Positions 45,374 through 51,567 of a stretch of 64,000 nt of DNA are shown here, one piece after another (within the stretch, counting starts at the first letter, position 1; each line of letters starts with the position of its first letter). Source of the DNA: Variovorax boronicumulans (lineage in GTDB: Bacteria; Pseudomonadota; Gammaproteobacteria; Burkholderiales; Burkholderiaceae_C); contig NZ_JAAAFX010000009.1 in the NCBI RefSeq assembly GCF_019352895.1, positions 824,764-888,763 of the forward strand. Direction: 5' to 3'. A program made the translations under genes and the position numbers. Under the pieces are notes generated by a model. That model saw only the letters and a program-made list of their open reading frames with translations. It was not told the DNA's origin and ran no database searches.

Positions 45374-47377
45374 TCAGGCGGCGAGGGCTTCCAGCTGACC
45401 GGACAGCGCCAGCCAGCGCTCCTCGAGTTGCTCGATTTCGTCGTTCAGCGCCTTCAGGCGCTTGCCCGCCTCGGCGATTTCCGCGGCCGGCAGCGACTGC
45501 GTGAGCCGGGTTTCGATCGCGTCCTTGTCCTTGCCGGCCGCAGCCAGCCGCTCGTCGATCTGGCCCAGCTCGCGCTTGAGCGGCTTGGCCTGGTCGTTGC
45601 GCTGCTGGCGGCCCTGCGCGTCCTGCTTGCGCTGGTCGCGGGACTCTGCGGGCGCCGCAGCCGCCGGTGCCGCGACCGCGGCAGGCTTGGGCGCGGGCGC
45701 CGCGGCCTTGTTGCGTACCGCCTCCTTGGCTTCCTCGCGCTGGCGCTTGGCTTCTTCCAGCAGGTAGCGCTGGTAGTCGTCGAGGTCGCCGTCGAAATCG
45801 GTGACCGCACCGCGGCCGACCATCCAGAACTCGTCGCACACTGAACGCAGCAGCGCACGGTCGTGGCTCACCAGCATCAGCGTGCCTTCGAATTCGTTGA
45901 GCGCCACGGCCAGGGCCTCGCGCGTCGCCAGGTCCAGGTGGTTGGTGGGCTCGTCCAGCAGCAGCAGGTTGGGGCGCTGCCAGACCATCATCGCGAGCAC
46001 CAGCCGGGCCTTTTCGCCGCCGCTCATGGTGCCCACCGGCTGTTTGACCATGTCGCCGGTGAAGTTGAAGCTGCCCAGGAAGCCGCGCAGCGCCTGTTCG
46101 CCCGTGGGCTCCTTGACGGCCGCACCGAGCTCGCGCGCCATGCGCACCATGTGCTCGAGCGGGTTGTCCTGAGGGCGCAGCACGTCGAGTTCCTGCTGGG
46201 CGAAGTAGCCGATGTTGAGGCCCTTGCCCTCGGTGACTTCGCCGGCCAGGGCGCCCATTTCGCGCGCGATGGTCTTGACCAGCGTCGACTTGCCCTGGCC
46301 GTTGGCGCCCAGGATGCCGATGCGCTGACCGGCCTGCACCGACTTGCTGACGTGGGTCAGGATGGTCTTGGGCTCGCCGTCCACCATGTAGCCGAAGTCG
46401 GCATGGCTGATCGAGAGCATCGGGTTCGGGATGTTGCCCGGCTCCTTGAACTCGAAGGTGAAGTCGGCTTCGGCCAGCAGCGGCGCGACCTTCTCCATGC
46501 GCTCCAGCGCCTTGACCCGGCTCTGCGCCTGCTTGGCCTTGCTGGCCTTGGCCTTGAAGCGGTCGATGAACTTCTGCAGGTGGGCGATCTTTTCCTGCTG
46601 CTTGCCGAAGGCGGCCTGCTGCTGCTCCATGTGCAGCGCGCGCATTTCCTCGAACTTGCTGTAGTTGCCGCCGTAGCGCGTGAGCATCGCATTGGCGATG
46701 TGCAGCGTGACGGTGGTCACGGCGTCGAGGAATTCGCGGTCATGGCTGATCACGATCATGGTGCCGGCGTACTTCTGCAGCCAGGCTTCGAGCCAGACCA
46801 GTGCGTCGAGGTCCAAGTGGTTGGTGGGTTCGTCGAGCAGCAGCAGGTCGCTCGGGCACATCAGTGCGCGCGCCAGCTGCAGGCGCATGCGCCAGCCGCC
46901 CGAGAAGCTGTTGACCGGCTGGTCGAGCTCGTGCGTCTTGAAGCCCAGGCCCAGGATCAGCGCCTGCGCGCGCGGCGCGGCGTCGTGCTCGCCGGCATCG
47001 GCCAGGTCGGTGTAGGCATGGGCCAGCGCCATGCCGATCTCGGCATCGTCGGGGTTGGCGGCGTAGGCCTCTTCGACCTTGGCCAGGGCCTCGCGCAGTT
47101 CGACCAGCCGGGTGTCGCCGCCGACCACGAAGTCGCTGGCCGATTCCTCGGTCTCGGGCATGTCCTGCGCGACCTGTGCCATGCGCCACTGCTTGGGCAG
47201 GTAGAAATCGCCGCCGTCCTCGTGCAGCGTGCCGTTGAACAGGGCGAACAGGGTGGATTTGCCGGCGCCGTTGCGGCCGACCAGCCCGACGCGCTCACCC
47301 GGGTTGAGGGTGACGGTGGCGCCATTCAGGAGCACTTTGGCGCTGCGGCGCAGGATGACGTTCTTCAGCGAGATCAT
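45374..47377 (-). CDS. ABC-F family ATPase (YheS/Uup-like)
   Basis: The 667-residue protein is two ABC domains with no membrane segment: Walker A GRNGAGKST and GANGQGKST, signatures SGGWRMR and SGGEKAR, Walker B LLDEPTNHLDLD and LLDEPTNHLDLA, and a Pro/Ala/Gln-rich linker before a C-terminal coiled coil. These features mark an ABC-F translation factor that clears stalled ribosomes. Its ATG overlaps the M14 gene stop (ATGA), so it may be translationally coupled to a gene that is now broken. Confidence 0.93.
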   Translation of the reverse strand: MISLKNVILRRSAKVLLNGATVTLNPGERVGLVGRNGAGKSTLFALFNGTLHEDGGDFYLPKQWRMAQVAQDMPETEESASDFVVGGDTRLVELREALAKVEEAYAANPDDAEIGMALAHAYTDLADAGEHDAAPRAQALILGLGFKTHELDQPVNSFSGGWRMRLQLARALMCPSDLLLLDEPTNHLDLDALVWLEAWLQKYAGTMIVISHDREFLDAVTTVTLHIANAMLTRYGGNYSKFEEMRALHMEQQQAAFGKQQEKIAHLQKFIDRFKAKASKAKQAQSRVKALERMEKVAPLLAEADFTFEFKEPGNIPNPMLSISHADFGYMVDGEPKTILTHVSKSVQAGQRIGILGANGQGKSTLVKTIAREMGALAGEVTEGKGLNIGYFAQQELDVLRPQDNPLEHMVRMARELGAAVKEPTGEQALRGFLGSFNFTGDMVKQPVGTMSGGEKARLVLAMMVWQRPNLLLLDEPTNHLDLATREALAVALNEFEGTLMLVSHDRALLRSVCDEFWMVGRGAVTDFDGDLDDYQRYLLEEAKRQREEAKEAVRNKAAAPAPKPAAVAAPAAAAPAESRDQRKQDAQGRQQRNDQAKPLKRELGQIDERLAAAGKDKDAIETRLTQSLPAAEIAEAGKRLKALNDEIEQLEERWLALSGQLEALAA

Positions 47378-49130
47378 GGAATCGGCGAAATGAGGCCCAG
47401 GGCTTCGACGGCGGCCAGAACCATCGCGGTCTGGGTGTCGTGGGCAAGGATGAAGGGAGCGCCGTGGATCGTCTCGTCGGGAAATTCCGAAATCAACGTC
47501 AGGGCGGGGCCCGGTCGATGCACTTCGCTGATCATGCAGGCGGTGCCGTGGATGAGCTCGAACGGTAGATCGCCGGCATGTGCATTGTAGCTGGCGAGCT
47601 GTTTGGCGTTGAAAGCCCTCAACGCCGGTCGCTCGGCCAGGCGCAGGCAGACGTGCTCGGCCAGTTGCCGGGCCCTGTCTCCCCAGCCCGGGTGATGGCG
47701 CAGGATCAGGAAAAAGCCCTTGGGCAGCATCCAGGCCTCGAAGCCACGCGGGATGTAGCCGCTGAAGGGCCGCGTCCATTCGTGGGCCGGATAGCCGTGG
47801 AGGTTGAGGTGCAGCTGGGCGCCGGACATCGCCAGGCCCTGTTCGCGTGCCGCGCGCTCGAACCAGGGCGGGGCATCGCGGTATTCCAGGTCGTCGCCCA
47901 GCGCCGTGTAGCGCGCCGCATGGTGCATGTGCCGCGGTGCCTGGGCGCACAGCGCGCGGTGCAGCGCAGCGCATAGCCGTCGGGGTTCTCCAGCGGGATC
48001 AGCGCGAAATGGGCCCGCTGGCGGACCAGCTGTTGCGCGGCGCGCAGCGCACCCACCACGCCCGAGGTCTCGTTGGCGTGCTGGGCGCCGGAGATCAGCA
48101 CCGCCGGGCCCTTGCCTGGATGGTAGACACCGCGGACCGCTCGGCCTTCGCGGCTGGCGACTTCGAAGCGCTGGCCCGGCACGCGCGCCAGTTCGGCCGC
48201 GATGCGCGCCGGCGCCAGCGGCGACGGGGTGTGTTCCAGCGGCAGCGCGTCGGCCGCGACGACGACGTCCGGCGCCAGGGCCGGGTAGGCCGAGGCCGTG
48301 ATGCGCAGGCGCGCAGCGCCTCTGCCGGCGCGCACGTCCGGCACGATCTGGCCCGGCCGCAGCCGGCGGTCGCCGGCCGGCCGGCCGCTGCGGTGCTGGA
48401 AGAACTCGAGCAGCGAGAAATACAGGTCCTCGTGCATCGCCTCGTGGGTGTTCATCCAGCCGCTCTCTGCCGCCGGCGCATGCGCGATGCCGGGCATGTC
48501 GACACGGAGTTCGAGCCGCTCGAAATACGGTTCGGTCTCGGGCCAAGGGTGGGCGTGCACCAGCGCCAGGGCCTCACGGAAGATCGCCTCGTGCTCCGAT
48601 TCATGCCGGCGCTCGGACATCGCCGAGCCCGGATACTGGACGCGCAGCCAGGCGGTCGGCGACAGCATGGGCCGGTCGAGGAAGTCGGCGTGGACGCGGT
48701 TGGGCGCAGGCACGGTGTCGCTGCGCTCACGGCCATCACGCCAACGCAGGTCGACGCGATAGCAGGGCAAGTCTTCGGATGCCGGCAGCGACAGCAGCTG
48801 CAGTTCGGCGCCGCCGAGCATCTCGGCCAGCGGATAGGCCTCGAGCAGGAAACGGCGCGGCGAGGCGGCCGGATGCACCGGGCAATGCACGATCACCCGC
48901 GCCAGCGCCTTGCGGTCGACCGCTTCGAGAAAGTGGTGCACCAGCGGCTTATAGGCGCTGTAAAGGCGGGCCTGGATGCCCCGCGCCGCCAGCTGCGCCT
49001 CGGCGCGGCGGCGGGCGCGGGTGCCCTCGAAGAGCCAGCCCTCGACCGCCGTGCCGGCCGGACTGCCGCTCAGCTCGCGCACCCACGCCTCCAGCATGCG
49101 CGACACCCGGACGTCGAGCAGAACGTCCAT
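47374..49130 (-). pseudogene. M14-family zinc carboxypeptidase, frameshifted
   Basis: Reading from 49130, the first 388 codons encode a protein with the M14 zinc motif GAQHANETSG (H351 and E354) and NPDGYAL. The frame then breaks near 47968. A second frame continues the family sequence with the third zinc histidine region (HLNLHGYPAHEW) and the likely catalytic glutamate (EFPDETIHG). Removing one copy of the AGCGC pair at 47963-47972 would restore a 583-residue product. As read, the protein would stop at 474 residues. This could be a real slippage mutation or a sequencing error. Confidence 0.85.
47963..47972. repeat. 5-bp tandem duplication at the frameshift
   Basis: AGCGC is present twice in a row, exactly where the M14 reading frame shifts. 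One extra copy explains the change. Confidence 0.75.
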
Positions 49131-49347
49131 GGCCGCGGCGCCTAGCGCAGGCCGCGCACGATGGCGTCGCGCGTGAGCAGCAGCACCTGGTCTTCACCGG
49201 CCGAGGTGTCGAGCCCACGCCTCCAGCATGCGCGACACCCGGACGTCGAGCAGAACGTCCATGGCCGCGGCGCCTAGCGCAGGCCGCGCACGATGGCGTC
49301 GCGCGTGAGCAGCAGCACCTGGTCTTCACCGGCCGAGGTGTCGAGCC
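49082..49347. repeat. Perfect 132-bp tandem duplication
   Basis: Positions 49082-49213 repeat identically at 49214-49345, with CC shared at the joint. The unit spans the 3-prime end of prmB and the 5-prime end of the M14 gene, so both genes stay complete and a duplicated fragment lies between. Confidence 0.95.
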
Positions 49348-50170
49348 AGATCGCCTCCAGCCGCGGGAAGGCGGCCTCGAAGTAGGCGCGCTCGTTGCCG
49401 ATCTCGAGCACCAGCGCCGCCTGTGCGCTCATGCGCGAAGGCGCGTCGGCCAGCAGGCCGCGGATGAAGTCCATGCCGTCGGTGCCGCCGGCCGCATTGC
49501 CCGACAGGGCCAGCGCGGGCTCGGCCTGGTATTCGGGCGGCAGCGCGGCCATGCTCTGCGCGTTGACGTAGGGCGGGTTGCACAGGATCAGGTCCCAGGG
49601 GCCGGGCAGGGCCGCCAAGCCGTCCGAGGCGACCAGCGTGATCCGGCTGTCGAGTGCGTGCCGCGTGATGTTGATCGCGGCCACTTCGAGCGCCGGCGCG
49701 GAGATGTCCGAGGCGGTCACCGTCACGTCCGGGTAGGTCATGGCGGCCAGCACCGCCAGGCTGCCGTTGCCGGTGCACAGGTCGAGCACCTGCTGCGTGT
49801 GCGGGCCCAGCCAGTAGTCGATGCCGCCGTCGATCAGCAGCTCGGCGATGAAGCTGCGCGGCACGATGGCACGTTCGTCGACGTAGAAGGGCACGCCCTG
49901 CAGCCAGGCCTCCTTGGTCAGGTAGGCGGCGGGCTGGCGCGTGCGGATGCGGGTGTCGACCAGCGCCTCGACCTGGGCCTGCTCGGCCGGCGACACCGGC
50001 CGGTCGGCCACGGCGTCGAGGTCGTCGATGGGCTGCCGCAGCTGCCACAGCACCAGCCAGGCGGCTTCGTCGAAGGCGTTGGCGGTGCCATGGCCGAAGG
50101 CCACGCCGGCCGCATCGAGGCGCTCGGCGGCGGCTTCGATCAGCGCGATCACGGTGACCGGGGTGCTCAT
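49274..50170 (-). CDS. prmB: Ribosomal protein L3 glutamine methyltransferase
   Basis: The 298-residue protein has an SAM-binding motif [10 protein letters not shown] (130-139) and the catalytic NPPY (198-201) of HemK-like methyltransferases. The PrmB branch modifies a Gln of L3. Its ATG overlaps the dapE stop. Its 3-prime end is inside the tandem duplication. Confidence 0.92.
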
Positions 50171-51407: not shown

Positions 51408-51483
51408 ACCGCGGAACCGGCTTTGCCGGGCCGCCGGTATTGCCCCCTTGAGGGGGAGGCGCCAAAGGCGCCTCGGGGGTGGG
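51408..51483. repeat. G+C-rich intergenic repeat, copy A
   Basis: The 76-bp unit (ACCGCGGAACCGG to GGGTGGG) contains CCCCCTTGAGGGGG and GGCGCCAAAGGCGCC palindromes. It repeats 84 bp downstream as copy B. Confidence 0.85.
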
Positions 51484-51491
51484 CCAATGAC

Positions 51492-51567
51492 ACCGTGGAA
51501 CCGGCTTTGCCGGGCCGCCGGTATCGCCCCCTTGAGGGGGAGGCGCCGCAGGCGCTTCGGGGGTGGT
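51492..51567. repeat. G+C-rich intergenic repeat, copy B
   Basis: A close copy of 51408-51483 with a few changes (TATC for TATT, and GCCGCAGGCGCTT for GCCAAAGGCGCCT). The pair fills most of the dapE-pilU gap. Confidence 0.85.

Follow-up and report, generated by a model that had tools for sequence, protein, structure and literature searches.

A probable recent frameshift at a 5-bp tandem duplication in an M14-type peptidase gene overlapping an ABC-F gene in Variovorax boronicumulans

In a 64,000-nt stretch of the Variovorax boronicumulans genome (hereafter the window), the third gene of a dapE-prmB-M14-ABC-F cluster cannot be read through in one frame. Is this gene, which resembles those for M14-type zinc peptidases, truly broken, by what kind of change, and with what consequence for the ABC-F gene that starts within its stop codon? 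The whole M14 region (positions 49130-47374, minus strand) is part of contig 3 in a 6.5-Mb assembly of 15 contigs. It was treated as two pieces, with 386 residues before the frame change and 195 after it (Table 1). The names of the two upstream genes are presumptive: prmB-like (from sequence and gene order) and dapE-like.

Table 1. Features of the M14 region and its neighbours (positions in the window).
Feature	Position	Strand	Remarks
dapE-like gene, 392 aa	50167..51345	-	intact; 4-nt overlap with prmB start; 97% identical in UMC13
prmB-like methyltransferase gene, 298 aa	49274..50170	-	upstream neighbour; intact
Perfect tandem duplication, 132-bp unit	49082..49347		absent from UMC13
M14 peptidase, 5' frame, 474 aa	47706..49130	-	ATG 49130; stop 47708-47706
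5-bp tandem duplication, AGCGC x2	47963..47972	-	5-bp insertion relative to Variovorax sp. UMC13 (L019)
M14 peptidase, 3' part, other frame, 195 residues	47374..47961	-	stop TGA 47376-47374
ABC-F ATPase gene, 667 aa	45374..47377	-	NCBIfam NF007921 666 bits (cut-off 917); NF000355 395 bits (cut-off 380)

The frame change and the protein it interrupts

Translation of the open reading frames and comparison with homologues placed the switch of the M14 frame at a doubled AGCGC (AGCGCAGCGC). The 5' frame holds about 386 residues of normal sequence, including the HxxE motif (QHANE) and NPDG, followed by an out-of-frame tail. At the doublet the conserved protein resumes in another frame. This 3' part encodes the histidine of HGY and the glutamate of EFPDE and is 98% identical to Variovorax sp. 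UMC13, where it shares the frame of the 5' part. In Pfam comparisons the 386-residue piece scored slightly below the cut-off of PF00246 (21.0 bits versus 21.6), while the 5' frame scored above it (28.7 bits) in a six-frame search of the genome; the 3' part alone had no Pfam or NCBIfam match.

A doubled AGCGC alone proves nothing, because 5-bp doublets are common: about 1.75 start positions per kb were counted in 220 kb, and AGCGCAGCGC was found eight times there on the two strands together. The weight of the evidence comes from relatives, as none of the 11 homologues aligned there (UMC13 and 10 others) has the extra AGCGC, and from the conserved protein continuing in the other frame. UMC13 is the nearest relative among the loci found (91% identity for the protein piece), and its M14 gene encodes one protein of 582 residues, with neither duplication present. 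The dapE-prmB-M14-ABC-F cluster aligns throughout to this genome (BLASTN blocks of 91.3% and 95.7%). Relative to it, the window carries insertions of 9, 132, 3, 5, and 18 bases in the cluster, of which only the 5-base one shifts a frame. The preliminary description had placed the frame change exactly at the doublet, and the lack of the extra five bases in UMC13 confirms this.

From a scan of genome contigs, the best 80 of 92 homologous M14 loci were compared. A single open frame, defined as covering at least residues 30 to 555 of the UMC13 protein (573-653 residues), was present at 77 of them; two end at a contig edge and one has a frameshift of its own. The split arrangement might have been common to homologues, as the preliminary description had considered, and none of the 80 loci shares it; its claim that the gene is broken by a frameshift is supported by the 77 unsplit ones. 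Two further observations concern M14 genes elsewhere. Polaromonas sp. P2-4 (CP087965.1, a complete genome by title) has an independent frameshift at about 5250 of locus L028, with two bases fewer than its relatives, 57 alignment columns downstream of the break in the window. A distant M14 relative in Variovorax genome G029 (L011, 1025-2631; 36-44% identical in the 5' part) matches in two frames and may be frameshifted; its flanks contain no ABC-F match.

The M14 gene is an accessory one. With its 5' part as query, matches at E 0.001 were found in 8 of 61 genomes (its own, 36 of the genus, and 24 of the order), all within the genus, and the only match in three of the eight (G014, G029, and G030) is a distant relative, 40-42% identical. 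In all five congener stretches with both sides read, M14 has prmB on one side and ABC-F on the other. Outside Variovorax, the available flanks of the M14 loci contained no close ABC-F match; weak matches of 20-30% occurred in L088, L089, and L093. The M14-bearing Variovorax do not form one clade in the ABC-F tree, which covers part of the genus (34 rows, eight with M14) and implies three state changes; one gain of M14 with two losses is possible. As for a backup copy, when the own genome was searched at the protein level (E 0.001), the hits were this locus itself and the repeated copy of its duplicated start; at the DNA level they were this locus and four short stretches of 39-69 bases. Two other PF00246 genes are present in the genome, unmatched by the own-genome protein search.

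The intact UMC13 protein scored 23.9 bits with PF00246, above the cut-off. Its predicted structure (mean pLDDT 92.7, 41 sequences) shows a carboxypeptidase fold in residues 296-580, to which 2c1c_A (Z 21.9, rmsd 2.6, 230 residues aligned) and 7eqx_C (Z 21.9) both align, and the best Foldseek match of the model was the bacterial 4a37 (E 1.4e-9). By sequence, the protein had no significant match among M14 proteins of known structure (best 4oko, E 0.37). Five residues are invariant in the 41 sequences (UMC13 numbering): H350, E353, N381, H442, and E546. From the M14 motifs, we take H350, E353, and H442 to be the zinc ligands and E546 the catalytic base. The 5' frame in the window retains H350, E353, and N381, while H442 and E546 are gone; the window's own product does not unite all zinc ligands and the catalytic glutamate in one chain. 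Since the presumed third ligand and the catalytic glutamate are lacking, the locus would not be expected to yield an active peptidase, judging from the sequence.

Age of the break and the second duplication

Substitution patterns bear on the age of the lesion. Against UMC13, dN/dS was 0.177 for the 5' part of M14 and 0.038 for the 3' part. Polarisation with L020 gave the window lineage, as synonymous versus nonsynonymous changes, 31 versus 18 in the 5' part and 15 versus 1 in the 3' part; the corresponding counts for the UMC13 lineage were 29 versus 14 and 12 versus 3. No clear nonsynonymous excess, as a sign of relaxed selection after the break, was seen in either half on the window lineage. 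As neither half has decayed, the lesion is either very young or a sequence error. Synonymous divergence itself was higher in M14 than in its neighbours: dS to UMC13 was 0.273 in the 5' part and 0.240 in the 3' part, compared with 0.131-0.147 for dapE, prmB, and ABC-F, and the contrast was smaller toward L020 (0.61-0.72 versus 0.45-0.54). Past exchange with another strain in one lineage, or weaker codon constraint, would give such a pattern, which has no bearing on the frameshift.

The ratio of 15 to 1 in the 3' half looks as if this half were still under selection, as it would be if full-length M14 protein were made by a -1 slip on the mRNA through programmed or tolerated frameshifting. One X XXY YYZ heptamer, GGGCCCG at 48111, lies in the right phase where both frames are open; we do not know it as an efficient slippery heptamer. 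Against such slippage, 77 of the 80 homologues need no frameshift, and the frame change coincides with a duplication. We consider this explanation highly improbable. As a leading idea, a programmed frameshift was rejected on the 77 unsplit loci and on the position of both in-phase heptamers (48111 and 47484), which lie away from the break.

The second duplication, with a unit of 132 bp and 134 bp identical at that spacing, covers the region where prmB ends and M14 starts, about 1.1 kb upstream of the AGCGC doublet. Both prmB and the start of M14 are unbroken by it, with one complete end copy kept for each gene. Two duplications in the same gene region had been pointed out beforehand; both are indeed present here and absent in UMC13, but the longer one breaks no gene. 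Inspection of the sequence showed microhomology at both, of 3 bp for the 5-bp unit (within GCA-GC-GCA) and of 2 bp for the 132-bp unit (between CC and CC).

The rarity of such changes was estimated from an alignment to UMC13 comprising 10 blocks and 122,758 bases (about 97 kb of the 220 kb fell outside the blocks). It contained 271 indels, of which 219 were dropped because identity in either flank was below 85%. Of the 52 that remained as well placed, 39 were not multiples of three. A list of frame-breaking candidates over the aligned bases mixes genes with noise, as the high G+C content leaves long chance open frames on both strands. Only two of the 52, the 5-bp and the 132-bp ones, duplicate 4 bp or more in tandem. 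Searching for perfect tandem duplications with units of 25-600 bp gave one (the 132-bp one) in 620,000 bases sampled from the own genome and none in 202,462 bases of UMC13. In 122.8 kb, the chance that two randomly placed sites lie no more than 1.16 kb apart is about 2% (estimated as 2 x 1.16/122.8); the clustering, which was spotted before being tested, is suggestive and not strong. An older repeat lies further upstream at 51408-51566 (84-bp unit, 1.9 copies, 93%), covering the end of the gene that precedes dapE and extending past it; this repeat predates the 132-bp duplication, as the UMC13 alignment passes through it without a large gap.

Could a single event account for both duplications? 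Each has 2-3 bp of microhomology, the distance between them is 1.1 kb, and the well-placed indels include no others. On these grounds, one episode of error-prone repair or replication may have produced both, the frameshift being a natural uncoupling of ABC-F in a genus with at least three modes of starting this gene; we regard this combined reading as unlikely. A literature search for microhomology-associated tandem duplications together with frameshifts or pseudogenes in bacteria returned no such case by title among the matches listed.

The main rival, and a serious one, is a sequencing or assembly error. The M14 gene would then be intact in the strain, and the extra five bases, perhaps also the 132-bp duplication, would exist in the assembly only. 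An error would equally leave both halves undecayed, and two odd changes about 1.1 kb apart, in an alignment whose 52 well-placed indels include no further tandem duplication of 4 bp or longer, could mark a locally bad assembly. Sequencing errors in homopolymers, however, are typically not 5-bp duplications. Moreover, the site lies deep inside a 1.55-Mb contig, and both junctions carry the 2-3 bp of microhomology that real duplications often have. A general assembly artefact, as distinct from a local one, finds no support in the 620-kb sample, where no other perfect duplication with a 25-600 bp unit occurred. Taken together, we give an error a modest chance, well short of an even one.

The perfect 132-bp repeat and the 2.6 copies of the 5-mer could in principle be lost again, and both halves of the gene are undecayed, as they might be if expansion and contraction of the repeats switched M14 and its coupling to ABC-F on and off within a population. 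No variation of the repeat was seen among the 11 homologues that align over this position, and contingency loci are typically longer than 2.6 copies of a 5-mer. A reversible switch thus appears very improbable.

The overlap with the ABC-F gene

The ABC-F protein fell short of the cut-offs set for NF007921, Uup, and EttA and exceeded that of the general ribosomal-protection ABC-F model. Its ATG (47377-47375) shares four nucleotides (ATGA) with the M14 stop. The overlap of the two genes, from which the preliminary description derived a possible effect on ABC-F expression through coupling, holds as a matter of anatomy, and it is kept in all seven M14-bearing congener junctions examined. Where M14 is absent (49 junctions, L151-L204), other arrangements were found: GATAAT within 35 nt of the ABC-F start in 30 junctions (the hexamer alone was sought), a 4-nt overlap of the prmB stop with the ABC-F start in nine, and neither feature in 10. 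In the window, no sigma-70-like promoter was found at 47300-49400, and no clear Shine-Dalgarno sequence was seen on inspection before ABC-F. We know of no functional link between the M14 and ABC-F proteins, and a literature search on the Variovorax M14 carboxypeptidase with ABC-F found nothing on the pair in titles and the starts of abstracts.

Ribosomes translating the 5' frame of M14 in the window stop 328 nt ahead of the ABC-F start. In a study of Escherichia coli gene pairs, reinitiation at a distance of 38 nt fell by 80-90% in two pairs and was lost altogether in a third (PMC10666635). Because first-frame ribosomes stop so far short, termination-reinitiation coupling should fail here and ABC-F synthesis should be lower, as expected by analogy with these pairs. 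Independent initiation at ABC-F, or entry into the second frame at ATG 47928, 47829, or 47730, could soften the drop.

Proposed course of events and comparison with known systems

Our preferred explanation, which we hold to be probable, is that the accessory M14-type peptidase gene of the dapE-prmB-M14-ABC-F cluster was inactivated very recently by the 5-bp tandem duplication. Short direct repeats (GCA..GCA) most likely gave rise to the duplication, through slippage or template switching between them. The shifted frame would yield a 474-residue product that diverges after about residue 386 and should not be an active peptidase. Its stop would no longer lie inside the ABC-F start but 328 nt before it, and reinitiation at ABC-F would drop. 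The 132-bp duplication would be another young change, one that leaves both frames as they were.

By itself the finding means little, as it concerns either the loss of an accessory peptidase gene or a sequence error; frameshifts of this kind are ordinary, and more use can be made of the conserved M14/ABC-F overlap. If real, the lesion offers a natural test of whether an ABC-F protein whose gene starts inside the stop codon of its neighbour is still made once that neighbour is frameshifted. The comparison would be easy, since Variovorax ABC-F genes lie behind a GATAAT promoter-like element, a 4-nt prmB overlap, or a 4-nt M14 overlap.

Three known systems resemble the locus. Short tandem duplications are a known cause of recent bacterial pseudogenes, which likewise have one frameshift, no further decay, and an intact orthologue in the nearest relative; the window differs in its second, neutral tandem duplication 1.1 kb away and in a downstream gene that overlaps the broken one. 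With M14 zinc carboxypeptidases (PF00246; 2c1c, 7eqx, and the bacterial 4a37 and 4b6z), the UMC13 protein shares the fold, HxxE, the HGY histidine, and the late glutamate, but it has about 290 extra residues before the catalytic part, and the gene in the window is frameshifted. Finally, the ATGA overlap of 4 nt is shared with coupled overlapping gene pairs that use termination-reinitiation, as described by Huber et al. (PMC6728339, PMC10666635); in contrast to those pairs, the coupling of M14 and ABC-F is a prediction from the overlap.
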